Shown: piece after piece, positions 7,480 through 64,000 of the stretch
Layout: each line of letters begins with the position of its first letter
Numbering within the stretch: the first letter of the stretch is position 1
From: Sclerodactyla briareus
Lineage: Eukaryota; Echinodermata; Holothuroidea; Dendrochirotida; Sclerodactylidae
Direction: 5' to 3'
Length of the DNA: 64,000 nucleotides
Assembly (NCBI GenBank): GCA_026419785.1
Contig: JAODTK010000333.1
Location: forward strand, 310,001 to 374,000
Notes under the pieces: model-generated
What the model was told of the DNA's origin: nothing
Databases searched by the model: none
What the model saw: the letters and a program-made list of their open reading frames with translations, nothing else
Translations under genes and position numbers: made by a program

Positions 7480-10310
7480 ACATACCATATGAGCACCATC
7501 TTTCCAGCCCTGGCCCCGTAATCTGCGTTTTCACAAAAAATTTGCCAAATATCCACATATTTCACAAAAATCATTTCCTACAGTAGAATGATCTTGTTCT
7601 CCATCCACCAAAAAACTAGCGTTCTTGTGCTGCCCATAAGAAAGCCACACACCAATCAATAACTTGATCAAGCCAAGCATTTAATACTTGACATGTTTTG
7701 AAGAATTCCAGCGTTGGCCTCTGGTGACCTCAAGATGAACTCTGACCTCGGCATAGGGTTATGTACTCCATCAAAGGGGGTACAACGTACAAGTTACTTT
7801 GATCCATCCCGAACCTAGACGTTATCTTGTTTTCACATATCCACACGAGCCAAGGCACAAAAGCAACCAGCTGTGAGAAAGTAACAACATCACTAGATGA
7901 ACAGTTCCATGACTTTTACGGGCTCAAAACCTTTTCACTGACTTTCAACCTTATCCGCCTGGATTTTTTGTTGATGAAATTCCATGCTTTTCCAGGTTCC
8001 CTGAACCGGGAACCCTGATAAAAACAATCTTTTGAAACTCCCCTACAGAAATTATACATCCGGACTGCCCAGCAAAGTGAAAGATGTTACCAACTTACCA
8101 CATACTCATCAACGATAACATAGTGGAACATCAGATGAATTACCTCCAGACACATAAGGAGTGGTGACGGTTTTGAAGATAAAGCCATAAAATAGAGCTA
8201 TGGGGAGAAGCTTGTTTATGTTCCCCTTAACTGTTTAGAGTGGTGAGCTGCCCCAACCACATCAGGCCTATCATTCAAATAGATTGCTAACAGACCGCCA
8301 GAATGCATGGATAACTTTGTCAAACCAGAAACAGAAGCCAAAAGGCTTAGTGATTTCTGACTCTTTCTGACAACCTATATCCATACCAGGACAAATGGAA
8401 GATTTGCACAGCTCCTTATGGAAACCATAACGTCTGCCAAATTTCCTATATTCCCCAACCAACCAATAGGGCTCCTATACTCTTGATAATGAAGCCTACA
8501 ACACGAAATTTCAAAGTTTTCAGACTCTGACCTCGGTGACCTCAAATGAACTCTTGACCTTACCAAAAACAATAGGGTAATGTATCTCATCATGTGGAAC
8601 TCACATACCAAGCAAAATGCGCTCATCCATCTGGGTGGAGCCGAGTTATCGTGTTACAAGTCAAATTGGTCGAAATAATGTCACTTTTCACAATTTCATT
8701 TCTTAGACCAAAAAATCATCTTCGACCTGGACCAAAAACAATCGGGTTTCTGTACTCCCCGGCTAAGAATCTACACATGAAATCTCAACCTGAATCAGAC
8801 CAAACACTTCTGGACTTATTGTGTTTACAGAAGGTTTTCAGACTTTGGACCTCTGCTTACCTCAGCTTACCTCTGACCTGACCCCAACACATAGGGTTCA
8901 TTACTCATCATTCGGAACACACATACCCCGTATGAGCCTTCATCCATCCGTTTGGGGTGGCGTTATCGTGTTTACACGCGCCAAAATTTGCCAAATTTAT
9001 TGACTTTTCACAATTTTTATATTTTCAACCAAAATTCACCCCGACCTGAACAAAAACCAAAAAAGGTTCTTTTACTCCCATAAGAAAGCTATCCACCAGA
9101 TTTCAATCTGATCGGACCAACCATTCTGGACTTATCGTGTTTACAAGGTTTTCAGCCTTTGACCTCGTTTGACCTCAATATGACCTCTGACCGACCCCAA
9201 ACAATAGGGTTCATGTACATCATCAGGAACACACATACCAAGAATGAGCTTAACTCCCTCAGGTGGGGTTGAGTTATCGGTTTACAACCAAATTGGCCGA
9301 CATATCAACTTTTCACTATTTTCCCTATTTTTGACCAAATTTCCCACCAACACCCCGACCTGAACCAAAAACAATAGGTTCCTGTATCTCCATTAAGGAA
9401 GCTACACACTAAATTTCAACTTGTAGACCAACCATGCTGGACGTTGCTGTTTACGAAGTTTTCCGACTTTGACCTGTTGTTGACCTTGGATGACCTCTGA
9501 CCTGGCCCCAAAACCATAGGGTTCATTACCTCAATCATGGGGAAACCAACACATATCAAGTATGACCTTCATACATCCAGGGGGGTAGAGTTACCGTGTT
9601 ACAAGCCCAAATGGCCAGAAATCGACTTTCACATTTTTCCTTTTGGACCAAATTCACCCCCGAACTGAGACCCAAAAAACACCTAGTTGGTTCCTGTATT
9701 CCCCATAAGAAAGCTTATACACCAATTTCAACTTGATCAGACCAACATATCTGGACTTATGCATGTTACAGGTTTTCAGTCAGACTTTGACTCTGTTGAA
9801 CCTCTGACCTTACTCCAAACAATAGGTTCATGTACTAATCATGGGGAACACAACATACCAAGTATGAGCTTCCTCCAATCCATGTGGGGAGTCGAGTTTA
9901 GTTCGTGTTTTTTTTAACAAAGCCAAAATTGGCCAAAAAATCGACTTTAAATTTTTCTAATTTTGACCAAAATCACCCAGGACCTGAACCAAAAACAATA
10001 GGTTCTGTACTCCACATAAGGACGCTATACCCCCAAATTCAACTTGATCTGACCAAACCATTCTAGACTTAATCGTGTTTACAAGGTTTTCGACTTGACT
10101 CTAGTACCTAAGATGGGGACCTCTGACCTGACCCAAAAACAATAGGGATCATGTACTCATCATGGGGAAACACATACCAAGTATGAGCCTTGATCTACTC
10201 AGGACCTGATCAAGTCCGGTGTACAAGCGGGCGTCACACACACACCTACAAACACACACAACACGACTGACTGCATAGATTCCTGACTTCTCAAGGAATC
10301 AAAGCAAAAG
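7480..10310 (+). mobile_element. Hairpin-ended repeat family H4, long tandem copy
   Basis: A block with CAATAGGGTTCATGTACTCA followed by GGGGAACACACATACCAAG recurs near 8570, 8891, 9208, 9515, 9819 and 10138, with spacings of 304-321 bp. Each unit contains a second, homologous half with CAATAGGGTTCCTGTACTCC and AAGAAAGCTACACACC, so the period is a dimer of monomers of about 158 bp. The copy ends in a CA-rich microsatellite (about 10229-10262) and the hairpin GATTCCT...AGGAATC at 10278-10300, then AAAGCAAAA. TGACCTCTGACCT motifs recur throughout. It closely resembles bivalve pearl elements, whose core repeat is about 160 bp. No transposase is encoded. Confidence 0.65.
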
Positions 10311-11045
10311 GCATCGTGATTCCTTGCCTGACTCTGACTTGATCGAGCTAAGCATTGTCAAGTTCACATGTTTACAAGATTGACAATAGAGATAATGTAG
10401 TAGTCATATGGGGAAACCCACCTACCACGTATGAGCTTCATCCACTGCCGAATGGGCCAAATATCAATTTTTCATTCTTTCTCCCAGAACGGATCCCGGC
10501 CCATACGAAATTACAATAGGGTTATGTCTCCCATAACAAAGCTACCATACAGATTTTCACCCTGATCGGCCCGGGCATAGGAGGATCCTGGTTTAAAGGA
10601 ATTTCAGACTTTGCCCTCTGTGACCTCAGATGACCTATGACCGGACCCAAAAACAAAGGGTTCATTAATCATTATGGGGAACCCAAATACCAGGTATGAC
10701 AGCGTCATCCATCCAGGTGGGGGTCGAGTTACGGTTCACAAGCTAGGATGACCAAAAATATCATTTTTTAGTTTTCTTTTCCATCACCAACTGATGCCCT
10801 ATCCGAAAACAACTTTTCAACAAGATTCTCAGATTTGACCGTTGACCCCAAGATGACCTTTACCTTACCCCAAAACAATAGGCGTCATTACTCATCAGGG
10901 GGAACACACCTACAAGTATGAGCTTGATCTATCTAGAGAGGGGACGCATCGTTAGCGAGTTTCACAAGCCAGTCGTCACATACACATTACATAATTACCA
11001 CAAAAAACACACACACACAAACACATTCCTCAGAAATGTTTGGTA
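10311..11045 (+). repeat. Further H4-family monomers, decayed
   Basis: H4 text continues after the hairpin, with anchors near 10655 and 10872, and ends near a second (CA)n tract at 10996-11022. It may be a second, damaged copy or the remainder of a larger array. Confidence 0.5.
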
Positions 11046-11061
11046 CACATTCGAAGCTCAC

Positions 11062-11156
11062 GATTGGGGTCTGTGCTCTCAGTTTGCCACAGATGGTGGG
11101 CTTCTCTTCCGCTGAGCTTGAATCCTGATGGGTCATCAATCTGGATTTTGACACAC
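11062..11156 (-). CDS. Candidate internal coding exon B (pair with exon A)
   Basis: The minus-strand acceptor ACTTATCCCACAG|GT precedes 31 open codons: VSKSRLMTHQDSSSAEEKPT, then ICGKLRAQTPI. The donor ATC|GTGAGC follows. Entry is phase 1 and exit phase 0, as in exon A at 4408-4508, and both share TGTGGCAAACTG near the 3' end. A third, weaker acceptor of this type (ATTCCCACAG|GT) lies at 18057-18059. The family is not recognised. It may be alternative to exon A within one minus-strand gene, but the 6.6 kb between them leaves this open. Confidence 0.45.
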
Positions 11157-23829: not shown

Positions 23830-25443
23830 CCTGTAACGACCTTTGAACTTGATCTTCATATGGCCACAAAGAAGTTTTAGCAGTTAATAAACATTGTATT
23901 CAAGTTTGATCAACACCTATCAGAGAATGACCGATTGAGAGAGAAAAGGGCAATTTTACACAGGGGCCTATTGTGTCCCTTCAATGACCATTGACCTTCA
24001 CATGGTCAAAGATGTCGCAAAGGTTGATGAACATTGGGTTCAAGTTTGGTCAACATCCATCAAAGAATACTAGTTTGCTCTTCCATCAGATGTTGCCGCT
24101 TTAATTCTAACAGCACTATATGATGTTGGATCTAAAAAATCTGCAAACGAGCTGGAAAGAGCACCTCCAGAGAAACATAGACAGTTTCAAAAAAATCTAA
24201 TGTACTTTGCTAAGAAAACATTTGAAATATTACACATGATAGGTTATATGGCACCTTTAAGACTTTGACTTGACATTCACAGGGTCCAAAAATGTCTCAA
24301 CGGTCAATGAGCAGTGGGTCAGAGGTTGGTCAAAAATCATCGAAGAATAATATTGGGGGTCCGTAATGCTTCTTTTCAACAGATGTCACTTTTTCTTTCA
24401 ACTGTCAAAGTAATATCTGCGAGAAGAAGCATTATGGACCCCCAAAAAGTCATTCTTTGATCGCTGTTGACCAAACTTTGACCCAATGGTATTATGACCG
24501 AACATCAGTGCTGATCGCATGTGACATCAAAATTTGGTGTAGTAATCGTTTTGCCATGATTTACATTGGCTAGAAGTTCGCAAACACACACGATGAACCA
24601 CCGCAATTGAATGTAAAAATTACATGTACCTTTGAAGAAATTCATTGAAATTTGTGAGATTGCACTCCAAGTACCATTGCATGAAATTTCATGAAATGGG
24701 CCCTCTGGCTCAAGTGGGACCTTAGACAAGAATCCCTGAACAATTAGTAGGTACGGCGGTTACTCCGTTAGACCATTAATATGAACGAATGTCAGAACTG
24801 TGCACCAAAAGTGAGAGGGTGAGGAAGCATTTTATGTATTTCACACAATGGGCCCCAGGGCCCACACTGGCCTTGGGTCCTAATTCCCTGGGCACCCTGA
24901 AGGTATGGCTAATAGACCTCATTATGACTGAACATCAGCAATGTGCAACAAAATTTGTAGGAGATACAAGATTTTGAGGTCATTTCATATAATGGACTCC
25001 AGGGCCCAAACGAAATCCCTGGGCCCAAAATTCCTGAAACACCCCAATGGCTCTCCACCAAAGGACCATTACAAACTAGGAGAAAAATCAATGAAACTTA
25101 TGGGAGGAGATGCATTTCAAGTACCATTGTGTGAAATGTCCTAAATTGGGCCCGCGGGGCCCAGGTGGGACCTCTGATAAAAAACTTCCTGAACACTCCC
25201 GAAGGTACAGCTATTAGACCATCATTATGACCAAACATCAGCACTGTGCACGAAAATTTGTAGGAGGAGAAATTGAAATTTTATACACATAATGGTCATA
25301 TTGCCCCTTAATGGCCTTTGACCTTTACATTACCCATTGGTCAATGAACATTGTGTCCAACGTTTGGTCGACAGATAGATAGATAGATAGAGTGACATGC
25401 AGATTCCAATAGCTCAACCAGCATAGCTGGTTTAGCTAAAAAA
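23830..25443 (+). mobile_element. Hairpin-ended repeat family H1, long copy
   Basis: Modules with GAACATCAGCACTGTGCACG and AAAATTTGTAGGAGGAGA recur near 24496, 24780, 24927 and 25231, with spacings near one or two times 145-150 bp. TGACCTTTGACC-type text and GGTCAATGAACATTG recur as well. The copy ends in a (GATA)n microsatellite at about 25373-25391, then GTGACATGCAGATTCCAATA and the hairpin AGCTCAACCAGC/GCTGGTTTAGCT, then AAAAAA. The same terminus occurs at 3230-3281. Pearl/HINE-like architecture; class inferred. Confidence 0.6.
24300..24490. repeat. Fold-back inverted repeat
   Basis: GGGGGTCCGTAATGCTTCTT at about 24355-24374 pairs with AAGAAGCATTATGGACCCCC at about 24424-24443. Homology continues outward into GGTTGGTCAAAAATC against its inverted partner, giving arms of about 80 bases around a short loop. 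It lies inside the H1 copy and could arise from head-to-head monomers. Confidence 0.7.
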
Positions 25444-27690: not shown

Positions 27691-27693
27691 ACG

Positions 27694-39739: not shown

Positions 39740-39845
39740 GTCCGCAAAATATTGGGGGGTGGGGGGATATTTGATAGTATGTCCCCCCACCAAAAATATG
39801 GGGGGGGGACCTGTCCCCCCCTTCCCCCCCCCCCCCCCCCCCCCG
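39740..39845. repeat. G-run/C-run inverted repeat
   Basis: ATATTGGGGGGTGGGGGGA is followed by its inverted counterpart TGTCCCCCCACCAAAAATAT. GGGGGGGGGACC and a C-run of about 20 come next. A related AAATATTGGGGGGGGGGACA lies at about 38172. The segment can form hairpins or G-quadruplexes. Confidence 0.75.
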
Positions 39846-40867: not shown

Positions 40868-40899
<32 letters not shown>

Positions 40900-42260: not shown

Positions 42261-42894
42261 CTTGTGCTATTAAAATGAAGAACAAATGAAAAGTTTATTG
42301 CACAACTGATGCTTTTTGATTTGTTTGATTTCGCGACAACTTGAACTAAACGTAGATACTCGGATATCACCCAAAAAGGATGCCGATAAAAATGTTTGGC
42401 CTGCGCTCGGCCGCCGTGCAATTCCCAGTGCAGTGCTAGAGTGCCGGCTTGCCTAGCGAGCTCGTGGCCATTGACATCTACGACGAACAAACTTCCACTG
42501 CAAAGTGCACAGATACGCACATGTATAGCTTGGACAGAGCAGCGAATCCTGCACAGGCGCGCGGCCACGTATGAACACTCACTCAAGATTCGACCCTTAT
42601 GTCGTAGTAGGAGTGTAGATGAAATTCTAGCTCCAGTGCATGAAACTGTGCATAAAAACCTGGACCATCAAAATACGAAGAATGTGGTCGGGCTGCAGAT
42701 CGTGAATGTATTTATTATTCAATATAAATTGTGTACGGGGACTTGGGAACAGTCCTGGACTGTTTAAAAAACTGATGAATTGACAATTTGTGTTAAACAG
42801 ATATTAAAAACTATTAAGTACTTCTGTCCAAATAGCCTGACGACACTGTAGTGTGTACATGAAAAATCCACACCAAAATATTTTTAATTCCTTC
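42261..42894. other. Unassigned CpG-rich stretch
   Basis: CpG is frequent between about 42400 and 42600. The open frames on both strands have no recognisable content. Confidence 0.35.
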
Positions 42895-43080
42895 ATTATA
42901 TTCCCACCTGGGGATATTATGGTTCTGTCTTCGCCAGCGCGGCCGCCGCCGACGGAGAATTTTTATGTTAGCGCGATAATTCTCCACGCATTGTCAGGGT
43001 ACTTGAAACTTTGCACACTGTTTATCGAAAAAATTCGGATGAGTTCAAATTCGGCGTCGCCCAAACTACTAAGTCGAGGC
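42895..43080 (-). mobile_element. Hairpin-ended repeat family H3, inverted partial copy
   Basis: Read on the minus strand, GTGTGCAAAGTTTC, a CGCGCTAACA word, a CGGCGGCGG-rich stretch and CATAATATCCCCAGGTGGGA match the end of the copy at 63060-63750 in the same order. The terminal ATATCCCC/GGGAATAT can pair as a hairpin. Confidence 0.6.
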
Positions 43081-43139: not shown

Positions 43140-43535
43140 GCGATACGTTTTTAACGATATAATAGATATAGATTCTAATATATAAATATACTATATTATA
43201 TATATATATATATATTATAAGTGGTTTATCCCGCCAGGCGGTGTCGAGTTTATGATTGAGTTTAGTCAAAGGAAAATCTAGCAGTCAGACAGTGTGTGTT
43301 TGTGTGTGTGTGTGAGATTTAGTCAAAGAATTTCAGTCATTGACAGTGTGTGTGTGGGGCGGGTGTGTGTTTGTGAGTGTGTGTGTGTGTGCGTGCCGTG
43401 TGCTGTGTGTGTGGTGGGGGCTGGTGTGTGACGCCGGGATTGTTAACAAGATAACACTCGACTCACCTTGGTGGATCAAGCTCACTTGGTTCAAGTAGTA
43501 TAGTTATCAGTAGTATGTGTAGTAGTAGTAGTAGT

Positions 43536-43569
<34 letters not shown>

Positions 43570-43580
43570 AGGTAGTTAGT
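43140..43580. repeat. Cluster of microsatellites: AT, GT and AGT
   Basis: An (AT)n-rich tract at 43155-43220 is followed by interrupted (GT)n at about 43290-43435 and (AGT)n at about 43498-43570. A short segment around GATTTAGTCAAAG is duplicated between the AT and GT parts. Confidence 0.95.
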
Positions 43581-43589
43581 AGTTAAGTA

Positions 43590-44190: not shown

Positions 44191-44199
44191 ATCAAGTAC

Positions 44200-44690: not shown

Positions 44691-44697
44691 ATTATTG

Positions 44698-44790: not shown

Positions 44791-45594
44791 TAAAACACTG
44801 TTCATGGCCATCCTGAGTAAGTTCTTAGTGCAAAGTTAGTTACCAGAATTGCCACCTGTCATGAAACTGGTGGCCCACTTTTTGCCAAAGGCAAGATCTG
44901 TAACGAGGCAGACAATATATTCGATCCTCCAAAACCGGCGGGGCTGACGCTGAGCACACCAGCACTAGAGTCAGCATCATCATTTAACAAAAAGCGAGAT
45001 TAAATCATCTTATACAGAGGAGTTGTCTCTGCCCTGGCGCACTTGGGGGAGTATCAGCCAGAATGTCTTCTGCAGCACGTTTCGCAGATCCTTCTGGTGG
45101 GTGCCATCCAACTGCACAATGAAGCGACAGATTGGCACTATATCAGTGGGACCGTAGTGATTGTGACGTCAGGCTAATCGGTGTCTGTAGTTAGTCATGA
45201 TTACCCAACGTTTATAGTATAATAAGTTGTTCATGCTAGTTAGTTCTCACGTGCTTTATTATCGTCTCACCATGCGGGACCCAGAACGCAACAACATATC
45301 CACATGGTGGCAGCGAAAGAGGAACATTTTTCTACTATCTTATATGTGATAACCTATGGACCTAACACTCACTGACATTTCACACCAATGGCTGTGAAAA
45401 TTACTACTCCGAGTCCGGGCAGACAGGGTTACGAGGCCAGTCGTCTTTATTTCTTTGTAATATCCAGTAGGCAATTAATTTCACCGAGATGACTTTTCGA
45501 TCCTTGGCAAAAGTCGAGGAATCTATGTAGTCATGTTCGTATGTTGTGTGGTAGGGTGTGGGGTGTGTGTGAAGGGGATGACGCTTTGCTTGGA
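44791..45594. other. Unassigned
   Basis: No recognisable feature in about 800 bp. Confidence 0.35.
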
Positions 45595-46385
45595 TAGTCA
45601 AGAACAGTTGTCCGATCAAGCTGAAAATTGGGGTGTAGCTTTCTTATGGGAGTTACAAGGAACCCTATTGTTGGGGTGTTGATTGGGGGTCATTTGGGGG
45701 AGAAATTAGGAAATTGTCAAAACTTGATGTTTTGTCCAATTCTGGCTTGTAAACACACTAACACGACCCACCTGGATGGATGGATGAAAGATCATAATTG
45801 GTATGTTGTTTTCCCCAAATGAGTACATGACCATTGTTTGGGGTCAGATCAAAAGGTCATATGAGGTCACCAGAGGTCACAAGTCTGAAATCTTGTAAAA
45901 ACACGATAAGCAAAACCAGTGGTCCAATCAAGCGAAATGATGTGAGCTTTCTAGGGGGAGTACAAGGAAACCTATTGCTGTGGGTGTGATTTGTTGGTCA
46001 TTTGGGGATGACATAGGAAATAGTCAAAAATTGATTATTTTGGCCAATTTGGTTGTAAACACACTAACTCGACCCACCTGGATGGATGAAGCTCATATTT
46101 GATATGTGTGTTCCCCATAATGAGTACATGAACACTATTGTTTTGGGGTCAGGTCAAGGTCATCTGAGGTCACCAGAGGTCAAAGTTTGAAATCCTTGTA
46201 AACACGATAAGTCAGGACCGTTGGTCTGGTTCAAGCTGAAATTTGGTGTGTGGCTTCTCAATGGGAGTACAAGAACACTATTGTTTTGGGGTCAGGTCAG
46301 AGGTTAACAGGATACGTCCAGGAATGCTTGATTTGATCAAGTTGAAATTTAGTGTGTGGTTTTCTCATCAAAGGTAAGGAACCCT
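45595..46385 (-). mobile_element. Hairpin-ended repeat family H4, inverted copy
   Basis: Read on the minus strand, the H4 dimer is present at least twice: ATGAGTACATGAccattG-type anchors lie near 45820 and 46119, about 300 bp apart, each paired with the AAGCTG/CTTTC half-unit. AGGTCATATGAGGTCACCAG-type text recurs. No terminal hairpin is clear. Confidence 0.65.
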
Positions 46386-47079
46386 ACTGTTTTGTCGAAA
46401 TGTGTCCAGTTTGTAAAAAAAAATGGGAACAAGTCTGTGAGGAAATGGCGTCCCCCATATCCTGCAGCTTGTACAATGTCCCATTTATCCCAGTGTCAAG
46501 GAAGTCTATCCTTTGCTTTCGTGTTATGTATTTTATACTTGATTCGCGAATTAACAAGCCATGGCAACCTACGGTACAGAACTCCTACTATCGATCTACT
46601 CCTTAGACAAAACAGGAACACAATGCTATTATCCATCCATCTGCTGATATGTCGGCAATAGTCTACGATGACGCTAATCCCATTGCGTCCAGGACCTTAT
46701 CTACTACGGGATTGGAGCAGGATTGATTGTTACTACAGGTGCCTGGTCGTGTCGTCTCCGAGGGTCCAACGATCCTGGGACTGGGTGATCTACTATACTC
46801 TCACTGATCTACTATAAAACTCAACATGACTTGCCACATCACGAAATTGGCACTTATGTTGAGATTAGCCACCAGTGTGTAGGGGTGTCATTATATGCCA
46901 TAACTACGACATCAGATGGTTGCAGGAATTTTAGATCAGGGTCACCATCCTACCCACACGACGTTGATACCATTCGACGATAAATTCTCAATGGGAGGAC
47001 ATTTCCCTCTGGCCCCTGTGTCAACTTAACTTTAGGTTCCCGGCTTGTCATTAACAGCAATATTCAGGGTTGTATAGGC
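46386..47079. other. Unassigned, perhaps decayed retroelement
   Basis: No clear motif; it immediately precedes the Gypsy fossil and may include its unreadable 5' part. Confidence 0.3.
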
Positions 47080-47495: not shown

Positions 47496-47507
47496 CAGCT
47501 GAAAATT

Positions 47508-50569: not shown

Positions 50570-51020
50570 CCGAATGTACAATCAGAACAACATCCATCCA
50601 TATTGATTGTAGGAGGACTATATCATGTCAGGTCACCAATGTACAATCAAAACAATCACCCTATCTGATTGTCTAGGAGGACTATTCAGTCAGGTCATCC
50701 AAGGTACAATCAGAACACATCCATCATATCTGATTGCTAGGGGACTATAAATGTCAGGTCTCCAATGTACATCAGAAAACATCCATCCATATCTGATTGC
50801 TAGGAGGACTATACGTCGGCCTTGTTCAGGTCATAAAATGTGCAATCAGAACACATCCATCCCATATATGATGCTAGGAGGACTATATCATGTCAGGTCA
50901 TCCAATGTACAATCAGAACACACATCAGCACATATCTGATTGCTCGGAGGACTATATCATGTCAGGTCATCCAATGTACAATCAGAACACATCCATCCAT
51001 TTGATTGAAGGAAGACCATA
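50570..51020. repeat. 67-bp minisatellite, 7 copies
   Basis: TCAGAACACATCCATCCATA, TCTGATTGCTAGGAGGACTA and TATCATGTCAGGTCATCCAA form a unit of about 67 bp, with copies near 50580, 50645, 50708, 50770, 50848, 50920 and 50985. The units are contiguous, with no unique spacers. Confidence 0.95.
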
Positions 51021-51245
51021 TCATTGTAATCAAGGTTCAGTGAGGGAGGGAGGGAGTGGTAGGCAGGTAAATGTAAAATATGTAACACCTCAATGTGTCA
51101 CCAGATGAAACTAAGCCCTCCTGTGAGAGACAAAAAATGAGCCTCAACGCCTCTACAGGACACACACGGGGGGGGGGACCCAACATTTTGGGGGGTGGAA
51201 ACAGGCAGACGTACTCATAATATCACTATGCTTTGAATTTCACGA

Positions 51246-52739: not shown

Positions 52740-52883
52740 TCAACATTGGGCCCCTCCACCCTCAGTGACGTACTTCTTGCCAGACCCAATCTTGGCCTTG
52801 GCCGTGCCTCGGACCTTCTTCTGCCTGTTCTTTCGTTCTTTCCTCTGCTTGCTGGAGGGCCTCTTCACCTCATAGAGGCCGTG
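52740..52883 (-). CDS. RPS24: RPS24 last readable exon
   Basis: The acceptor CTTACAG precedes CAC. The 47-codon frame begins [20 protein letters not shown] and ends [15 protein letters not shown] before TGA at 52740-52742, with no indels. The animal family usually ends close to GKK, with small alternative 3' exons in vertebrates. Here GGCAAGAA|GTACGT puts a usable splice donor exactly at GKK (donor at 52768-52773), so the [10 protein letters not shown] tail may be intron read-through. Either form is possible. Confidence 0.9.
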
Positions 52884-55800
52884 CTGTAAGATAGGCAGTG
52901 AATCATTCATCAATAATTACAGAGTTTAATGCACAACACCAGGGCCAATCAGCTGCTGTCAGGGAGCATAAGGCTCTTCAGATGAGCAAAATTGCCAGGG
53001 GTGGTAGATGGGCAATTCAGGAGGATCCCTGTCAGGAAATCTTGAGTGAAACCACTCTTCTTCAGAATGCAACGTCTTCTGAAGTACCAGGCCCTGGATG
53101 TTGAAGTCTGTATTATTTTTGTACAACATCTGAACTAGCAAAGAATGACCCCTTTGTTGGCCCTTGACACTATACACGTCAGTCAGTGATGATATTACTG
53201 ACAATTCCTGCATTACCCGAAAAACATTGTGCTGCTTTGCACAACTGATTGTTAATTAACCCCTTGATGAAATTTCAAATGAAGCCATTGTGGCAATTGG
53301 CACTTACAAATTTATGTCAGCCTTCTACACAGATGAACCTACACTGTTAGTCTGGTTAACGGGCAAAAGTGATGTTCTTATCTGACAACTCTTTATTTTG
53401 TATCTATCAATTCTAACCAGCGCTCAGGTAGAGAGAGCCTCAAATCCCTTGTAATGTAGCGGCCAATATGCAATCATCGACATGGTCCACTGCAGAACAG
53501 AAGTTAAAAATACATATCAGCACTGGCAGGGTTAACAATTTCTTCATGACGGACCCTTCCCTTTGGGCATCTCTCAGGGCTGGAATTAACCGACGGCACC
53601 GGCGGCCATGGCCTTCGTGTTTTTCATGATGGCCGCAGTGCCCTAAAAAATTGCCTATAGCTCACGGCCACGATGGCCGTCCTGCCCAAATTCCTTTGCC
53701 GTCATGCCCTCTGAAGTTGGTCTATCACTCGAGACTCGTCACCAGAGAAACATGGTCCGATTTCCTTTTAATGATCCTAAATACATCCTAAAATTATCCT
53801 AAACACCTGAATTACGATCACAAATTTCTGCCAAAACGGCCGAAATTTGCCGGTATAGGCCTCGATTTGCCTATGCAAACAGTGTGTTAGGATAGCACTT
53901 TTTTTTTTCAAACATGTGTATCTCGGATCAGTGATCTTGAAATCACGAAAATACCACTTGTTTTCTGCCTAATATATCAAAACATGTGAGCGGAGTATGG
54001 GGAGGCTATATCCACCTCTGAAAATTATTTGGGCACAATTTCGGTGGAGATACTAAGTAGGCCATGGTGGCAAAACTGGGAGGGGGCTGTCTTGATGTAT
54101 TTGTATGGTCTAGTACAAACGAAACACTTGCGGAATGTTGTTGTCAACTTTCAGGCCATGTTTAGCCGCACGTCACAGTTCAATGAAGCACTACTAACTA
54201 AAACTCAATGTCTATGTCACTTGGAGCAGACTTGAAAGATTTAACATCAGCGGCCTCCTGAATCTCACAGGGTATAGCCTTTCCATTCAGGTATTGTCCT
54301 CGGGTACCGATAATACGGTAGCAATCCTATTTGTGGCAATGGGGTCATTAAGGTCGTTACTTAGTTCCAGTATGGGGTAAATATAACCCTTTCTAAAATG
54401 TGTGGGCACCAATTTGATAATCATACAATTGGATTTTCCTTATGGGTCACCATCATATGCGTAGAAGCATTTAGATGCAGTAAGCGACATTTGCCAGTCC
54501 CTTTCCTACATGATGTGAGTGTGTTAATGTCCCGTTGGAGTTGAAGACAATCACTATGGGACTTGATCTCACGATAGAGAACACACTCATCCGCAAGAAG
54601 GCGTAATGTCGAGGGATATTTTGGGAAGGTCATCTATGTATATATACCAAGAACAGGAGGGGGGCCCAAAACAGTTCCTGAGGGACGCCTGAGTGTAACT
54701 TCCACTTCAGATGAGATGATGTCTCACTCTGTAGAAAACTTCCTGTTGAACGTTTGGTGAGAAATGACTGAATCCACTTTGAGCCGTGATTCTGATACCT
54801 GCACTTTGAGGCTTGGGTAAGAGACGTTGATGGGGCACACTGTCAAATGCTTTTTTGAAGTCCATCGTCAAGTCAGGCCTAATCATGCATTGCCTGTTTC
54901 TACTGCAGTAGTGGCATGTGTCATGAAATTGTGCGTGCATGCAGGGATGAATTCAAATTCATTTTAAATATTATTCCCATTTGTAGCATCGCTTGGGCTT
55001 TGAGTAAACAATGAAAAAAAAAAACTTCAACCTCGTAGACCAAGAAATGGGAGTAGCCACCAACAAGGGTAGGTGTAGGTATGGTGTTAGGAAAGCAGTA
55101 ATGGTCTCCGTCAGTGTGGTGGTGTTTGGCAAAGTGTTTGGTAGGCGGGGAGATGGGTTTATGCAAGTGCGTTCTGATAGGGGAACCCCCCCCTCCCGAC
55201 GCCCCCCCCCCCCCCCCCCTCCCTCAAGAAATCACGTGCAGGTGGACCAAAATTAATTTGACCTTCATATGGGCTGCATACCCTGTCCTGAGGCTTTTTA
55301 CTTTTATCAATTCACATAGTGTTGGGTATTTTTGCCTGGTGGCCCTGCCAATATGACGGAAAGTTGCCTTGGTGCCCTACCCATGCCTGGTGCCCCTACC
55401 CAATGGCCGTGGTGCCTGCCCTCCAAAATTTCTAAATATACAAAGGCCAATGGCCGTAGCCCTCTCTCACCTTATCCCACCCTGACTCTCTTAATGGAAT
55501 TTTTATCAACGGAAATAAGAAACCTTACCACCTGGCCATGCGGTACTTTGGCTCGTACTCTTGCGTATCCAGCGTTCCGTAGATGAGGGCAAAGCAGTGG
55601 TCCTGCCGCACCAAACTGGGTCTTGAACCCAAAGCAGAAGATGACATCTGGAGTGGTCTTAGCTGTCTTTAGTCCCTAGTCCTCTCACGCAATGCTCTCC
55701 GTCTTCGACACAGTGGCCTTGCCATGGGTGGAAGAACATCGCCAACCTGAGAAACAAGAGATAGTTGGAAATTGGAATAAATCATGCACTTAGGCACATA

Positions 55801-58800
55801 CAATGACCTCTACTGACCCCAGCTGTAACCTCAAATTGATCAGGATCAAAGGGGGATCACCTCTACCATGTTTTGTGGAATCTAACAATTTCAAATTGCA
55901 ATACATTATGCAAATTAGACACCTTAAAAAATGACGCCCAGTGACCCTGACATCCCACTTTTTCGGGAAACATAGTAGACCACATCCACCAAGTTTTGTG
56001 GAAGTCGAAAGACTTGAAGTTCACATAAATTAGGCAACTTAGACACTTATTATCATATTTTAGGCTGAAAATCTGATCAGTTCATTACTACATCACTGTA
56101 GCACATACGGTTCGAATGTAAATCTTGCGAACGAGCAGCTTTAAACCAATAAATACATATAAAATGAGCTAATTATCCCAAACTTAATTAAGGTTCTTTG
56201 CTGCCAAAATCTAATCAGATCTTGTACACCAATCCAAGGGTGGGGAAGCCATTCGAAACAACACTGAAACAAGGGCAAACCTAAACTCTGAATGAAAACT
56301 AAAACTCTGATCACCCTTTTCTTGGGAGGAAAAAAGTTAGCTGGGAAAAAAGGTAGAGGTTCACACTATGAAGGTAGTACGAAGCCACACCCATATTACA
56401 GAGTTTCTAGCTTCATCAAGGGTTCAAAAGCCTTACTCGTGGGCTTTTTGTCACCCCTTAATGATGGACAGGAATATCGAAGGCAAGGGGCAATTATCAG
56501 ACCATCGAAAATTAACTAAATGGTTGAGTTAACACCTCCCCATTCAACATTTTCCAAACTGTCAGCAGGTATTACGTCTCAAACATTGTCTATCAAGTGT
56601 GCCTTGTGGTAGTGATGGAGTGCGAAATTCCGGGCAACCCCTAAATATAGCTAGTACAACATGTCATGTCTATTGTGACTCAGCTGATGGGCGGGTATTG
56701 GAGACATGAAAAAAAAAATCAGTGGGTTTAGGTTTCAACCATTCTTTCCAACCCTTTGATTAGCAGCGACCTCTTAAACATTTTCATTTCCAGTTGTGTG
56801 GCACTGGGAGGTGATTATGGTAGGTGTTTTGCAAATATGACTTTTCCAAGGATTGTTTTGATAATGGGGGCATACACACAATTAGCACAAACGGTTTGTC
56901 TTTTTTCCACTGTTGAGGTTGTGTCTCCGACTACATGTGGAACCTCTAGGCTGCTCTACTCACTGAAAAAACAAGGCGATCGCCCCAGTGTTCTCGCCTG
57001 GTTGCGCATCAGTGTGATTCTTCTTTTATCCCATGCTAACAATTTACAAGGCATTTCATATATGTTGCTGTTAATATCCATACATATAAATTATTCAACA
57101 GTCATTGCAACATTCACTACACCCCTTGATCCTACCCCTACGCACCCTACCATATAAACCCAATAATGACGGATGTTAATAGTTCCCTTCAGATTACTGT
57201 ATCGTCCAAAACAATGTAAATGGAATCCTAAATCTAATAAAGTTATCTATATATCATCCAAGAAGAGTATGCCCTTTATACATCACTACTTCCATCAAAC
57301 TCCTAGGGAGTTAACACCCACACCCCTCACATCCCTGTCTAGAGTGGAAGAAGCAATCTAATTAGGCTTCCTGGAGGAGTCATGAGGCCCTACTGGTGAA
57401 AGCTATGACTATATAAGTGATCAAGGGAGTCCATCCCTCCCCCCCCAACATCTCACACACCAGAGCTACTGCAGGTGACACCTGACACCATTCATTCTTA
57501 ATAGGTGCCTGGGAGTTAAGTTAAAAACAATGTTGGTGTTTCACTTTATATGTCAGTGTAGGGGCCCAAGAAGAGGTTAGGACAGGCTGATGGTGAACCT
57601 CAAGGTTTAAAAGAGGTTTGAAAGGTTGAAATCTCTGTCTGTTCACAGATGGGAATACATAGTTAGGAGGAATGGAAATAAAACATGCCTGAGGGGTTGA
57701 ATGGTTGAATGGTTGTAAAACATTTTTGTAATTGATAGCATGCTATAGTAATAGCGAGTTCAGCATCATGCTGGTCAGCTATGCTGCCCCAAGACTAAAT
57801 CATTTTAAAAGGTATGTAGCGTTACAGTCTCTGAGTTGTGTGCAGTAAAGTATTATTTGACCAGTTTTTGGTCCAAAGTGACCTTGAATGACAATTGATG
57901 ACATAACGGTTTATGAAAATGTTACCCCTTGATCATATGCAGCTAGCCCGAAATTTCAGTTAATAACACAAGTCATCTAAAAATGATTTGCAGAGAATGT
58001 TAATATTTGGCAGTTTCTTGACCTCGAATGACCTTTGATGATTTGACGGTTTTTATGAAAAAATGCTTGCCTCACTGATGAGCACCAAGCCCCAAAAGCA
58101 TTTGTAATCAGATACACCCAACCCGTATGCTATCGCCACAAAGTATTAAACCAACCTTGAGCCCCTGTAACTTGAAGACCCGGGGTCAGATAGAAGCGGG
58201 GAGTTGGAGTTGGTTTCGTCTAGTAGCAGATATAGAACGATACATATCCAAAAACGGACAGGTTTTATTTCTTTGGCCTGTGACTCCTAAAATAAGCAAA
58301 ATTTTTAAAACTGACCTTGGACCTTTTGAACTGGTCTAAGATGTTGTCTGAGACTGAACCAAAAATTACCATGACAAATCTACGAGCACCCTAGTGCATA
58401 ATTCCAATTGTTATGGCCATTTAACAAAATTCAAACAAATTGTGTCTGTCAAGTAGCAAATTAATTATCACATTAAATGACCTTAGGTGAAGTTACACTG
58501 TTGTAAATTTATCGGGATTCAAAGGTTTGTACCATCTCCAACAAGTTCATGAGGATTCCAAGAAACACGCCTAATGTTATACGAGAAAAAGCTAATATTA
58601 AATTAAATTTGACCTCTGGTAAACTAACCAAGTATGCGTCCGATCGAAGCGGGAGTTGGTTTCCTCCAGGAAACCCAAAGGTCGCCCGTCGTAATCCTTT
58701 AAATAAGACCATATTATTCAAGACTACAACCGTCAACCCACATACCACGCCGACAGAGTAAATTGGGGTCAGAGGTCACCACATGCAGGTCACAATTATA

Positions 58801-61800
58801 TGACAATAGGTGAAACCCTCCCAGCCTTCACCGATATTCAATTTTCCGATTAGGCCAGAAAACAGTTGTGGACCCCTAAGTGACCCGTGAATGACCTTTA
58901 ATGACTGGCAGTTTTTATTGAAAATTGTAAGCTACTCATGTGTATCATTCCACTCCTAGCGAGATTTTACATTCTGATGAACATGCCCCAGTGCTATTGC
59001 CAAAAAGTACGATATCAGTTTTTTACCCCTACGTGACCTGAGGACCTTCAATGAAATGACGGTTTTTATAAAGATGTTATCTCCAGGGATGCCCACTCCT
59101 AGAAGCTATGCATTCCATTACAAGCCTAATGTTATTGCGAAAAAGCATTTAAATTAAATTAACCCTTGGAAAATACCCAGGAGTATGGTGGCCGAGCGAA
59201 CAGGGGAGTGGTTTCCATGAAGCACCACAAAGGTTATCACATATCCAAAAATAACCAGGTTTCTATTTTTTTGCCCGTAACTCCTTAAATAAAATAAGCA
59301 CATTTATTCAATGACTTCAACCTTTACCCACATGACCACCCGAAGAGGTCAAATTGAGGGTCAGAGGTCACACACATGCAGGTCAACAACTATATGACAA
59401 TAGGGAACCTTCAAGCCTTCACAAATATTCAATTCTCAAATTATGGCCAGAAAACAGTTTTGCCCCTTAAGTGACTTGAATGACCCTTTAATTGCATGGC
59501 CCGTTTTATTAAAATTGTAATTCTCCATGCGATACATCAACTCCTAGGAGCATTTGCATTCTGATGAACATGCCCAGGTGATATGACCTAAAAAGTACAA
59601 ATTCAGTTTTGACCCCGAAGTGACTTTGAGGGGACCTCCAATGACATGGCGGTTTGGTTTTTTATAAAAAAATTGTTACTCCCGTGATGCATCCACTCCT
59701 AGAAGCATATTGCATTTCAATGAACACGCCAAGGTATTGCGAAAAAGCGATTAAATTAAACTTTGACCCCTTTTATACACTACCAAAGGATGCGTCCGAT
59801 CGAAGCGGGGTCTCCTCCATAAAGCACAACAAAGCTCTTCACATATCCAAAAAATAAACAAGTTTCTATTTTTTGGTTGCCTGTACCTCCTCAATAAGCA
59901 AATTTATTCAAGACCAACCTTAACACAGTGACCACCCGACAGAGGTCAAATTGAGGTCAGAGGTCAACAACATGCAGGTCAACAATACTATGACTAGTGA
60001 ACCTTTCCAGCCGTACAAATATCAAATTCTCCGATTATGGCAGAAAACAGTTTTTTTTGACCATTAAGTGACCTTGATGACCTTAATGACATGGCAGTTT
60101 TATGAAATTGTAACTCTCCATGGGATACTCCCACTCCTAGGGGCATTTTGCATTCTGATGAACATGACCAGTGCTCTGACTAAAAAGTCAAATTCAGTTT
60201 TGCCCCTAAGTGACCTTTGATGACTCCAAGACATGGCGGTTTTTAAAAAATTGTTACTTCTCCATGTGATGCATCCCTCTAGAAGCATATTGCATTCCAA
60301 TGAACAGCCCCCCAAGTTATTGCGGTAAAAAAGCATTACCGTATTCATTCCGACCTAAGAGACCAGGGCGCTTGCAAAGTGTCGGATGGGCGCTACGAAG
60401 AGTATAAAACTTACAACCGTCTGGGTGTGGTTTTGCGTGACTGACACGTGTTCGTAAACACACATTCAACATCGCATAATGGGAAACAAACAATGCCGTG
60501 CTATGTCCAAAGCAGGTAACCGTCCCTCTTCCAAACCCGCACTTCCCGATAAAGAAAACTCACAAAAATGATGTTCATTCGCCGTAATATAACTAGGTAT
60601 TTGCTATGCATCTGCGCTGTACAATATAGAAACACGCCTAAACTACGAATGGGCGCGATGATAAAAGAGGCGTACGGACACATACTGCAAGCCACCACAT
60701 AACCATTGTCTCGATTGGGCATGGATACAGAAGCAAGACAAGGCTTGGAATTTGATTGTGAAAGAGCTAAAATCATTGCTAAAACTATCAATTATAATCG
60801 TTGTATCCAGTTGAAATTGTTAATTCACTCATTCATTAATGAGTTTTTTTACCGTAGGTATACGAGAGTCAAGGACATAGCATCGTTACGCGGAGCGGGC
60901 GATGGCGAGCGCTCGAACGGATTCGGCTCTTCTTTAAGACCATGTTTCTGTGTGGTGTATGGTATGGCTGTATGCCTGAAATACAATCGAGCAATCAACT
61001 GATCCGAGATAGCGCACAATGCATACGTCACAATAGCGAATACCACCTACTGACGTCAGTAGGTGATAAACGGTAGAGCTGAACCCGCACAAAAGTCAAT
61101 GGGACAGTTTCTTACATCCGTGACGAACTTTTCGATGGTTCATGTACATTCCCTTCCCGTCGGCCGAAAGGTTGAAACAATTTCATCGATATTTGGTACC
61201 TGTGCAAAAAATTGCAAACACGCACCACTAGAAAACGGGAGTGAGTTTTTAATTCGACTTTCAAAAAAAAAAAGCTTAGGATAAGCCCTTCAGTGTGTGT
61301 AATGAATAACATTAGGTCACCGTGCGTACACGCGCTGACGTAAGGCGAATCCCTGAATAGCGACTGTGTACGCCGGCATGCAAAACAAAAAATATTTTCA
61401 GGCTTTTCTGGCCGCGCCATATCGGCTTTAGATTAAAGTTTGAAAAAAAAGTTGGGGGGCGCTTCTTACGGGGAGATGCGGCGCTTTAGCCGGAATGAAT
61501 ACGGTAAATTAACTTTGACCCATTATAACTACCAAAATATGCGTCCGATTGAAAGCGGGAGTTCCTCATAAAGCACACAAAAGCTCTATCACATAACCAA
61601 AAATAACAGGTTTCTATTTTGGGCCGTACGTCCTCAAATAAGCACATTTATTCGAAACTCAACCTTAACCACATGACCACCGACAGAGGTCAAAGTGAGG
61701 TCAACGGTCACACACATGCAGGTGCACAATTATAGTACCAATGGTGCACCTTCCAGCCTTCACAGACATTCACTTCTCGATTATAGCCAGAGAAAAAAGT

Positions 61801-62446
61801 TTGACCTAAGTGACTTTGAATGACAGCTTAGTAACATTAAATGACTTGGGGCCCTTCCCTACTGTAAAATTCATTGGGATTATAGTATTAAAACCATCTC
61901 CACCAAGTTTCGTCCAAATCCAACAAACTTCAAAAAAATCACAGGACGAAATTATGCAAATAGACAACTTAATTAGCATATAGCATGCCGGGAATCTGAT
62001 CAATTCGTGTACTCTTATAGTGGTTATATACCCTGAACGGCGCACCCAAGCATCTACCGATCAAGGGATCTTGTACACCAAGCTCCAGGCCAATTTTCAT
62101 TACATATGCAAATTTTAATTCATGCAAATGAGAATGGTCGTTTGGGCCGAACAGTGGGGCAATCGGCAAACTCGTCACGCAACCTCCACAAGAAGGTACC
62201 AAGCATGATGGCTTCCACGGTAAGGAGGAGATCTAACCGCACATACGACAGAAAGAACGGACAGACAGGGGGACACGACAGACTAGGACAGACACACAAC
62301 AAAAGGACCACTATGTCTCTCCTTGAACAAAGTTCAGGGAGACAAAAACCAAACCCAATATCAAAGATGACTACTCAACCATCTGTCTGCGGTAAAGCAG
62401 ACGGTGTGTCAGACTTCCTGGTTCTGATTGTTACTGCGGCGTCTCC
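52740..62446 (-). CDS. RPS24: Small ribosomal subunit protein eS24 (RPS24), partial at the 5' end
   Basis: RPS24 is a core protein of the small ribosomal subunit needed for 18S rRNA maturation. Three coding exons are readable on the minus strand: 62380-62446, about 55532-55746 and 52740-52883. Together they give about 140 codons, close to the usual 130-135. Diagnostic text includes [24 protein letters not shown] and [19 protein letters not shown]. Intron positions agree with animal RPS24: one right after the start codon, one after the residues that end LLQRKQM in human, and one after the LAR residues. The exon with the ATG is not found and probably lies beyond 64000. Conserved introns argue against a processed copy. 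Indels in the two upstream exons are likely sequence errors, or mark a decayed duplicate. Confidence 0.9.
53577..55450. mobile_element. Possible hAT-like element relic with GC-rich ends
   Basis: The left end AGGGCTGGAATTAACCGACG with GGCACCGGCGGCCATGG faces an inverted right side with CCAATGGCCGTAGCCCT. CTCTC flanks both sides (53572-53576 and after 55450). The ends share AGGGCT and GGCC/GGTGCC words but only short identity, so this is tentative. The LINE fragment would then be an internal insertion. Confidence 0.25.
54415..54945 (-). mobile_element. LINE reverse-transcriptase fragment in an RPS24 intron
   Basis: Minus-strand frames read [15 protein letters not shown] (about 54870-54820), then text around 54640-54690 recalling GTVLGPLLF and [19 protein letters not shown] follows at about 54610-54570, then [10 protein letters not shown] and [11 protein letters not shown]. 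The order and spacing are those of a non-LTR reverse transcriptase. It is truncated at both ends and frameshifted. It has the same orientation as the gene. Confidence 0.8.
55532..55746 (-). CDS. RPS24: RPS24 central exon, with indels
   Basis: The acceptor TTTCTCAG precedes GTTGGCGATGTT. Family text appears in shifting frames: a VGDVL start, then GKATVSKTE, then [23 protein letters not shown] and [10 protein letters not shown]. The length of about 215 nt agrees with 210 nt in human. About five 1-2 base indels relative to the family break the frame. The 3' boundary is uncertain: CCAGGTGGTAAGG offers GTAAGG two bases too far for the expected frame, probably another indel. Confidence 0.85.
55795..56240 (+). 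repeat. Truncated H2-family 3' segment
   Basis: CATTATGCAAATTAGACACC, CCAAGTTTTGTGGAA, CTGAAAATCTGATCAGTTCA and AATCTAATCAGATCTTGTAC match the region just before the terminal hairpins of the two larger H2 copies. The microsatellite and hairpin are absent. Confidence 0.65.
56972..62348 (+). mobile_element. Hairpin-ended repeat family H2, copy 2, with a 590-bp higher-order repeat
   Basis: The 5' end CAAGGCGATCGCCCCAGTG matches copy 1. A unit of about 590 bp recurs: ACATGCAGGT anchors lie at 58781, 59374, 59970 and 61714, and the last gap becomes about 576 once the inserted TIR element is removed. Each unit is built of four blocks of about 140-150 bp, the first two clearly homologous. The copy ends in a (GACA)-rich microsatellite (about 62245-62300) and the hairpin GTCTCTCC...GGGAGAC at 62315-62343, then AAAAA. 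It is antisense to RPS24. The 5' part to about 57850 is unassigned. Class: HINE/pearl-like, inferred. Confidence 0.65.
60339..61504. mobile_element. DNA transposon with TA target duplication, nonautonomous
   Basis: The ends are inverted: CCGTATTCATTCCG at 60339-60352 and CGGAATGAATACGG at 61491-61504. TA flanks both sides (60337-60338 and 61505-61506), and removing the 1166-bp element restores the H2 unit (GCATTAAATTAA). TA duplication points to the Tc1/mariner/pogo group. Open frames inside (such as 60706-61002) show no DDE transposase motif, so it is probably nonautonomous. Confidence 0.85.
62380..62446 (-). CDS. RPS24: RPS24 exon 2, coding start region
   Basis: The acceptor CCTTTAG precedes GGAGACGCC. 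The frame reads [11 protein letters not shown], then, after a frame change at [21 protein letters not shown] before ATG|GTTGAG. Human has 66 nt here and this has 67, consistent with loss of two bases from a 69-nt exon. The preceding exon would supply only the start codon. Confidence 0.85.
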
Positions 62447-63059
62447 CTAAAGGAAGAAAGAAAAGAACAATGTAAATCTACACAATACAGAGATATAGAG
62501 AAATGGCAAATTGAAAATGTTGGGAAATGTTCAGTGATGCATTGTGGATAGGGGAAACCATTAGTATCAGCTATACATGGAGGGAAAGGAATTAGTGAAA
62601 ACTGAAGAAGGATTGGGAATTTAAATGTAAATACAACAGGAAATTAGTAGACAAGGTTGCGAATCAGATAAAAAGCTGATAGATGATGGGTATCATCAAA
62701 CAGAAAGTTCACCAACTCTGATCTAAGGTAGCACTGAATCTGTACAAATCCTGTGAGTGGGACAGGGGGATCTTAGCTGGAGCCAGGGGCAGTTGGGACC
62801 CGGAGCAGCGGGTTTGGTGCCCATCGAGCTGTGAAACTGTCTAATACATATTCGCAAATTACAATTACTCCTCTCCTCTCAAAAATGGAGCCTAGTCCCA
62901 TTTTCACTGAAATCCCGCGTAGTGATTCCACATCTGGATTAGGTGTACAGCTGGGAACCATTTACTGAAGAAAGACATTGAGTATTAGGAAGCAGAGGAG
63001 AACTAGAATGTTGCAGGGGGTAAACCCGCCCATGTGATATCCCACTTTTGAGAAATCAT
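62447..63059 (-). other. Probable RPS24 first intron, unassigned
   Basis: No good start-codon exon (ATG followed by GTRAGT on the minus strand) was found here or up to 64000. Confidence 0.5.
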
Positions 63060-63757
63060 TGGGAAGAAGTATCTTTCTACATCCATAAAAGACCCCCATT
63101 TTTGGTCAGAACCAGACACACTTCATCAACAAGTTTGTTGTAATCCATGGGGTTAATAGGCACAGAATTATGCAAATTTTTTGACACATGATGGCTTTGA
63201 AATGATTCTAACTTTGTGATGGAACAAATGTAGCCCCCAGTCACCCCAAGTTCGTTCAAATTGACAAAGTTGGAAAATCGCATAAATTTTGCAAATTTAC
63301 CTTTGATGACCTGAAAGACCTCTCCCATGTTTCGGGGATCAACTATACTCCCTACCCACCCCAAGTTCAGTCAAATCCGACTCACTGAAAATTTAGCGAA
63401 AAAAATTATGCAAATTAGCGGACCCCCCAGCTTGCAACGGGAACTCTCCGAGATTCACTAGGGAGGAAAGTGTACCCAAGTTTCAGATCAATCGGATGAT
63501 AAAGCATGAAACAGTTCTTGCGCTAACGGGGAAAATCTCCAAATCATGGAAATTATGCAATTAGAGGACCCCGTTCATGGGCGACGCCCCACTTCGAATC
63601 ATCCGAGATTCATCAGTGACATGTGTGCAAAGTTTCGGCTCAAACGGCGGACAAAGTGTTGGAGAGTTTATGCGCTAACAAGAAACGCGGCGGACGAGGC
63701 GGGAGACGGCGAAGCCGAAACCATAATATCCCCGAAGTGGGAATAATGACAACCAGA
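63060..63757 (+). mobile_element. Hairpin-ended repeat family H3
   Basis: Blocks with TCCGAGATTCA ... GTTTC ... GCGCTAAC recur at about 63446 and 63601, 155 bp apart. Earlier blocks with CACCCCAAGTTC and ATTATGCAAATTAG lie at about 63240 and 63357. The copy ends with a CGGCGG-rich stretch (about 63687-63715) and TATCCCCGAAGTGGGAATA at 63727-63745, a hairpin, then ACAACCAGAAAGACAAAAA. An inverted partial copy is at 42895-43080. Confidence 0.6.
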
Positions 63758-64000
63758 AAGACAAAAAGGCTTAGTGATTCCTTGGACTCTTTCTGACAAC
63801 CTATAGCCAGACCTCAAGGACAAATGGGAGATTGTGTACCAGCTCATGGTGGGAAAAAACTAACGTTCTGACAAATCTTGATAAGATCGCTACACACTAA
63901 TTTCAAGGACTTCAGACCGGACCTCTGGTGACCTCTGACCTGCCCAAAAACAAATAGGGTCCTGTACTTCATCATGGGGAACACAATACCAAGTATGAGA
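63758..64000 (+). mobile_element. Hairpin-ended repeat family H4, runs off the window
   Basis: GGCTTAGTGATTCCTTGGAC and CTTTCTGACAACCTATAG match 8345 onward, followed by TGACCTCTGACCT and the GGGGAACACAATACCAAG anchor at the edge. It starts directly after the H3 hairpin end. Confidence 0.65.

Follow-up and report, generated by a model that had tools for sequence, protein, structure and literature searches.

The window analysed here, a stretch of 64,000 nucleotides from the holothurian Sclerodactyla briareus (contig JAODTK010000333.1, positions 310,001 to 374,000), contains four repeat families, H1 to H4. We read them as non-autonomous members of the Helitron2/Helentron group of rolling-circle transposons, of the HINE type (a HINE being a non-autonomous Helentron), running on the strand opposite to that assumed in a preliminary description of the same DNA, and give this reading a probability of roughly 0.78. 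Within this one 64-kb stretch two HINE-type families, H2 and H4, are well delimited, the anatomy being present at both ends; the other two, H1 and H3, are one-ended, and H3 is without a microsatellite. The four families add to an already known type of element, because oyster, mite, fly and fungal elements have similar ends or arrays. With an architecture known from oysters, mites and flies, the present case is ordinary but instructive.

That H1 to H4 are real repeat families, as had been proposed, was confirmed by self-comparison of the window and by an iterated profile search of it, which gave 16 hits for H4, 10 for H2 and two each for H1 and H3.

Orientation, ends and copies of the elements

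According to the available text of two studies (PMC7492417, PMC4067079), a HINE is composed of a 5′ subterminal inverted repeat (subTIR), a short complementary repeat, a microsatellite, an array, a 3′ subTIR and a palindrome, in this order. If the complementary strand is read, H2 and H4 consist of a T-run, a 5′ subTIR with its complement (together the "terminal hairpin" of the preliminary description), a microsatellite, an array and a 3′ subTIR, which in H2 and H4a is followed by a palindrome or stem. Since H2 and H4 match the published order only on this other strand, the elements run on it. Hairpin and A-run had been taken for the 3′ end; this has to be reversed, as they equal the 5′ end of the published layout: the A-run is the T-rich 5′ boundary, and the hairpin is the 5′ end, the start of the element. 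HINE-type elements are easily read backwards, as the conspicuous hairpin marks their start and not their end. H1, H2 and H4 have their A-run at corresponding ends, and it might instead be the poly(A) tail of retroposons; yet in the best copies it comprises only 4–6 residues, the opposite end of H2 and H4 carries matched inverted repeats, and no target-site duplication (TSD) above chance was found, so that retroposons appear scarcely credible.

The complete H2 element, H2a, occupies positions 13973–16567 on the minus strand. Its 5′ end at 16567 starts with TTTTTGTCTCGCCTG, and its 3′ end at about 13973 closes with CAGGCGAGACACTGGAGGCGATCGCCTTG. The 5′ end (16536–16567) contains the T-run, the subTIR TGTCTCGCCTG and the complementary repeat, followed by a GT microsatellite in the left flank (16478–16515, located with a repeat finder) and by an array with a base unit of about 150 bp and a 3-mer of about 456 bp (14838–16216, where the profile hits are separated by gaps). 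The 3′ end (13973–14001) consists of the subTIR at 13991–14001 and the palindrome GGCGATCGCC, which is also present in H2b at 56975–56984; this is a short palindrome of a kind that random DNA can also yield. Both ends of H2a align with those of the second element, H2b (56972–62348, minus strand). H2b is interrupted by a nested element of 1.17 kb (60337–61506) with terminal inverted repeats (TIRs). Its inverted ends (TTACCGTATTCATTCCG) match exactly over 17 bp, the TA counted in, and it has a TA duplication; when it is removed, an H2 unit is restored, and the flanks, once joined, can be aligned with intact H2 units.

The subTIRs were compared with 4977 random pairs of end-sized segments of 45/50 bp. 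The H2a arm TGTCTCGCCTG repeats exactly over 11 bp at 13991–14001, a match equalled by two of the 4977 pairs. Between H4 copies, the H4a arm TGATTCCTTG has exact 10-bp counterparts at the 3′ ends of H4b (10317) and H4d (63775), a length equalled by five pairs. When the window was scanned, 2 of 3197 windows scored as well for H2a and 4 of 3197 for H4, the true sites included. Profiles and alignment also demonstrated that the ends of H2 and H4 are conserved between copies.

H4 is present in at least four copies. H4a (8325–10309, minus strand) has its 5′ end at 10303–10309, with a T-run, the subTIR TGATTCCTTG, its complement and a GT microsatellite, then a dimeric array of about 312 bp, and its 3′ end at 8325, where the stem AAGCC-TTTT-GGCTT is followed after 10 nt by CTGG and then TT. 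Head-to-tail with it lies a short copy, H4b (about 10304–11047, minus strand), which has a decayed 5′ end and, at its 3′ end, the complement of the subTIR, exact over 10 bp; the H4b/H4a junction falls somewhere within a shared TTTT. H4c (45491–46530, plus strand) runs in the opposite orientation, with its 5′ end at 45491, a GT-rich microsatellite and dimers of about 306 bp; its far end at about 46530 is a guess by eye, as the 3′ profile did not recover it. H4d (63753–64000, minus strand) comprises a 3′ end, with CTGG at 63753, and the start of an array that is ended by the window edge, and it abuts the 5′ end of H3a. In both head-to-tail junctions, H4b–H4a (10303–10316) and H4d–H3a (63749–63753), a 3′ end meets a 5′ end.

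These limits differ from those given before. The range 7480–10310, formerly treated as one H4 unit, falls into one copy from 8325 to about 10309, the beginning of a second (about 10304–11047) and H4-type array pieces outside both (7445–7851, minus strand, from the profile search); the range said to start at 45595 has its hairpin-side end at 45491, beyond the earlier limit. A possible remnant of an H4 left flank, on the microsatellite side, was found at 43386–43463 (plus strand, profile E 0.0099, best value on the reversed window 0.081); it is a weak hit, since reversed-window values of 3.6e-4 and 9.7e-4 were obtained with two other profiles that contain a microsatellite. A cluster of AT, GT and AGT microsatellites at 43178–43583, adjoining H3b, is perhaps partly such a remnant.

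The end of H4 opposite to the hairpin, with CTGG before TT in H4a and H4d, looks like a rolling-circle 3′ end; H4d is without the H4a stem, and H4b has neither. Canonical Helitrons (Helitron1) start with 5′-TC, end with CTRR-3′, have a hairpin 10–12 nt from the end and insert between A and T, according to the available text of PMC5148889. H4 might accordingly be a non-autonomous Helitron1, as CTGG fits CTRR, stands before T in H4a and H4d and is preceded by the H4a stem 10 nt upstream. However, no CTRR was found in H4b or at the 3′ end of H2, none of H1a, H1b, H2a, H2b and H4a starts with 5′-TC, and asymmetric subTIRs do not belong to the canonical type, which makes Helitron1 very doubtful.

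H1 is represented by H1a (23830–25443, minus strand), with a T-run, the hairpin TAGCTAAACCAGC and a GATA/TATC microsatellite at the 5′ end (25443) and an array of about 150-bp units with a 3-mer of about 450 bp, and by H1b (2985–3281, minus strand), with its 5′ end at 3281 and a GTCY microsatellite. A probable further 5′ end, H1c, is located at 1–18 (minus strand) of an element that would extend beyond the window start; it rests on a motif match and is absent from the list of the H1 end profile. H3a (63060–63750, minus strand) has its 5′ end at 63750, a CGG-rich flank and repeats about 150 and 114 bp apart, and H3b is a 5′-end fragment in the opposite orientation (42893–43079, plus strand). 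The left limits of H1a, H1b and H3a were taken over from the preliminary description. Within H1, a 177-bp imperfect inverted repeat was observed at 24312–24488, as though H1 units met head to head.

Seven 5′ hairpins were folded with DNA energies. Terminal hairpins had been named as part of the shared architecture, and they stood out in H1a (z = −5.4), H2a (−4.2), H4a (−2.9) and H2b (−2.7), with −1.6 for H1b, but not in H3a and H3b (−0.8 and −0.3), which are not above chance. By inspection, a left-flank microsatellite is present in H1a, H1b, H2a, H2b, H4a and H4c, with H1b and H2a also listed by the repeat finder. The proposed sequence of microsatellite, hairpin and A-run was recovered by inspection in H1a, H1b, H2a, H2b and H4a; H3 is without a microsatellite. 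At least four T at the 5′ boundary were seen by inspection in 6 of 10 5′ ends (H1a, H1b, H2a, H2b, H4a and H4c), whereby the run of H4a may belong to the neighboring H4b; no such run stands at H1c, H3a, H3b and H4b.

TSDs typical of another transposon class had been named in the preliminary description as evidence that would speak against it. In five copies the direct flank match was 3–5 bp at best and was equalled by 24–265 of 300 random site pairs; no TSD above chance was thus found. The 3′ ends of H4a and H4d are followed by TT and 6 of 10 5′ ends have T-runs, with insertion between T residues judged on filled sites only. Alternatively, a DDE transposase could have moved the elements, which would then be TIR transposons of MITE or foldback type containing tandem repeats; H2 and H4 do have an inverted repeat at either end, and HINE-like elements were formerly classed as MITEs, as the available text of PMC4067079 states. 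Here, however, these repeats are short, asymmetric and in subterminal position, and neither TIRs nor a fixed TSD were found, in contrast to the nested element at 60337–61506 with its exact inverted ends and TA duplication; we consider a MITE-like origin improbable.

The T-runs bear on a further possibility, that the mover is Helitron2 proper, with a Rep-helicase without endonuclease, the T-run being the host TTTT target and the element beginning after it. Asymmetric terminal inverted repeats, hairpins and insertion between TTTT and T or C are described for Helitron2 in the available text of PMC5148889, and in the six 5′ ends named above the subTIR follows a run of at least four T. On the other side, a GTCY/GT microsatellite in the left flank together with a central array is the HINE/DINE layout in the available text of PMC7492417 and PMC9957191. 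Helitron2 proper is therefore a possible mover, though distinctly the less favored one; non-autonomous copies alone cannot decide between it and a Helentron. The fungal FoHeli elements of Fusarium, which are Helitron2-like, resemble the present ones in their asymmetric terminal inverted repeats and 5′ hairpin; unlike these, they are described mostly from protein-coding elements, and central arrays are not mentioned in the available text (PMC5148889).

The likeness to HINE and pearl elements proposed in the preliminary description therefore stands, in that the best H2 and H4 copies have matched subTIRs and no TSD above chance was found, apart from its orientation. Mite HINE-Mo families and DINE-1, as far as covered by the available text of PMC4067079, resemble the present elements in having subTIRs, there of 12–15 bp, near the 5′ end; they also have a 3′ palindrome and T-rich insertion sites, and some of them have microsatellites or tandem repeats. 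In the oyster, 11 HINE-type elements are reported in the accessible part of PMC7492417, with repeats mostly of 140–180 bp, GTCY-like microsatellites in several, a preference for TT and no TSD. Compared by description only, the elements of the window agree with them in the order of their parts, in repeats of about 140–180 bp and in the lack of a TSD above chance, and differ in forming higher-order units of about 300–600 bp and in that H3 is without a microsatellite. That a single genome can harbor several types of HINE is therefore already published. Pearl elements of bivalves, again by description only, have short arrays of about 160-bp repeats in a HINE-like element (PMC7492417, available text).

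The arrays and their period

The period of the arrays was measured by banded self-alignment, taking the best score in each of four bands (138–162, 288–318, 438–468 and 582–636 bp). In this order the scores were 44, 63, 72 and 13 for H1; 34, 31, 50 and 17 for H2a; 57, 16, 43 and 324 for the first part of H2b; 28, 359, 25 and 318 for H4a; and 54, 205, 31 and 42 for H4c. The strongest steps were at about 450 bp in H1, 456 bp in H2a, 594 bp in H2b and 312 bp in H4. As these steps lie on a ladder of about 150 bp, one unit length occurs as dimers, trimers and tetramers. The base period of about 150 bp given in the preliminary description is thus clear in H1, H2 and H4 and weaker in H3, where self-alignment gave 34 at 150 bp and 34 at 114 bp. 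Among six control stretches of 3 kb, five scored at most 16 in the four bands; the sixth (37–40 kb) reached 28 and 25 in the bands and 44 at 198 bp, and blastn found no repeat there (E 1e-3). H3 is hardly above this sixth control by self-alignment; its 5′-end profile matches again about 150 bp further on with E 1.9e-6 (the reversed window gave 2.4 at best). The control stretch itself (37000–40000) has self-similarity peaks at 162, 198 and 360 bp, without confirmation by blastn. No period was detected by self-alignment in H1b and in the last part of H2b. Overall, central tandem repeats of about 140–180 bp were seen in H1, H2a, H2b, H4a and H4c, in H3 through the profile match only, and not in H4b.

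The higher-order forms of one repeat of about 150 bp differ among related copies, with a 3-mer in H2a and a 4-mer in H2b, which offers a clean case for how rolling-circle elements seed satellite-like DNA. DINE-TR1 of Drosophila is similar, with central tandem repeats of about 150 bp between two conserved blocks, but has one homologous repeat family as opposed to the several dissimilar ones here (PMC9957191, available text). Monomers of nucleosome size, pointed out in the preliminary description, had already been remarked on in the oyster study (PMC7492417, in the part available). The arrays could also be mere satellites of like length, with hairpins and microsatellites present by coincidence: monomers of 160–180 bp are said to be favored in satellites generally (PMC7492417, available text), and H1 and H3 are without a proven second end. 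Against this, copies at different sites share the ends that flank their arrays, and H2 and H4 have matched subTIRs; we hold satellites with coincidental ends to be unlikely.

The four families had been called unrelated. For the array consensuses this was upheld, as in 12 comparisons across families no score surpassed the highest of 100 shuffles; H2 and H4 on opposite strands came closest, with 19.5 versus 20.0. Outside the arrays it has to be qualified by a diverged module that ties H2 to a locus near 56 kb. The module lies on both sides of the H2a array (14560–14760 and 16190–16345) and in the left flank of H2b (61835–62080), and it matches 55.8–56.1 kb with E values down to 5.6e-8 (H2a) and 1.9e-5 (H2b). 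The 56-kb locus matched H3 with E 0.026–0.06 only, and stray matches were obtained at 4079 (0.023) and 27331 (0.038); the reversed-window control with six queries gave one hit up to E 0.5. As the match between this locus and H3 is no better than the stray matches, a link between H2 and H3 is unproven. The locus itself (55763–56136) is a repeat with a module in common with H2 and possibly represents a fifth family.

The motif TGACCT has a density of 3.15 per kb in element regions versus 0.26 per kb elsewhere. Compared with shuffles, TGACC/GGTCA was in clear excess in the H2 unit and in the left part of H1 (0 of 500 shuffles each) and marginally so in H1b (11 of 500). No excess was found for H4, of which a single unit was compared (72 of 500), for the H1 3-mer (348 of 500) or for H3 (211 of 500). 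An excess of TGACC is therefore not established for all four families. AGGTCA is the half-site of nuclear receptors, and iterons offer a comparison for arrays on which a Rep protein docks. It is conceivable, if improbable, that clusters of TGACC(T) half-sites, about one per unit of about 150 bp and often 7 or 10–11 bp apart, arose by convergence or by repeated acquisition in HINE arrays with no mutual alignment, as a predicted docking array for the transposon Rep (iteron-like) or for a host nuclear receptor. Such a docking array, if true, would help to explain the retention of nucleosome-sized arrays. Among the titles listed by a literature search that was narrow in its aim at this motif, none suggested that TGACC clusters had been described in HINE arrays.

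Proposed mobilization and contrary evidence

In the proposed mechanism, the left flank would provide a T-run, a subTIR and its complement, which together make the hairpin, along with a GT, GTCY or GATA microsatellite in H1, H2 and H4; the center would be the array of about 150-bp repeats, often expanded to 2-, 3- or 4-mers, and the right flank would carry the inverted subTIR, with a palindrome or stem in H2 and H4a. A Rep-helicase from a gene elsewhere, whether or not it includes an endonuclease, would begin at the T-rich 5′ end, copying would proceed by rolling circle and halt at the end formed by subTIR and palindrome, and the internal repeats may grow by slippage or recombination.

Several results weigh against the assignment to the HINE type. 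An autonomous Helentron, which the preliminary description proposed to look for, was not found in the window, as Pfam detected neither Rep nor helicase nor endonuclease in its 164 distinct scanned open reading frames (ORFs). Outside masked repeats these were 119 of the 148 longest (at least 67 aa) among 282 ORFs of at least 55 aa, with 29 left out by no set criterion, many of them overlapping or of low complexity; inside repeats they were the 50 longest of 118 ORFs of at least 50 aa, and five ORFs belonged to both sets. Within single copies, the subTIR test failed for H2b, H4a, H4b and H4c, where the exact matches of 5–6 bp were reached by 1620–3863 of the 4977 random pairs, and for the own two ends of H2b and H4a (5 bp exact) 301 and 612 of 3197 windows, respectively, scored as well. 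Moreover, the end segments were picked after inspection of the sequence. We read the weak subTIRs within these four copies as decay; most of their ends align with better copies. The 3′-end folds of H2a (z = −0.4), H2b (−0.9) and H4b (+0.1) were not above shuffles, and of the two lower values, −2.2 for the H4a stem and −1.8 for H4d, the latter belongs to a stem unlike that of H4a. The 3′ subTIR lies about 20 nt from the end, as opposed to 38–60 nt in mite HINEs (PMC4067079, available text); in Helitron2-like elements of Fusarium this distance is about 20–40 nt (PMC5148889, available text). H4b has its self-alignment peaks at 222 and 264–270 bp, off the 150-bp ladder. For H1, no 3′ end or subTIR partner was found within the window. 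The candidate 3′ end of H3 at about 63015–63050, chosen by eye, is not significant, since 125 of the 4977 random pairs do as well, and H3 furthermore lacks a microsatellite and hairpins above chance level.

Scans without prior knowledge of the families and searches outside the window were also carried out. A de novo scan for T-run, hairpin and microsatellite gave 30 hairpins (mean 18, range 13–25, in 20 shuffles), of which three had a microsatellite (none in shuffles), one of them (H1a) from H1 to H4; the scan is too insensitive for counting families. A generic scan for a sequence, its nearby complement and its far complement was dominated by AT microsatellites and chance matches, and the ends of H2 and H4 were not among the matches listed. 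Exact patterns, one of H4 and one of H2, were searched in viral contigs and that of H4 in genome contigs, with no match. Distant DNA searches, for which H2 was compared with phages only and H4 with plasmids only, yielded no relative; H1 and H3 were searched within the window only.

Other features of the window

The Pfam matches among the scanned ORFs were one tyrosine-recombinase-like, a single reverse-transcriptase, a single RNase H and one family of unknown function. The tyrosine-recombinase-like ORF (37375–37677, minus strand) matches Phage_integrase with E 4.4e-4, which does not reach the curated cut-off, and the reverse-transcriptase and RNase H matches may signal a decayed retroelement. 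Rfam and ARAGORN scans of the window gave nothing. Three further regions contain tandem arrays: 510–2017, with units of 86 bp, also readable as 172-bp dimers, that are about 90% alike; 19677–22016, with units of 73–74 bp and dimers of about 147–149 bp; and 50573–51024, with units of 63–69 bp and dimers of 136 bp.

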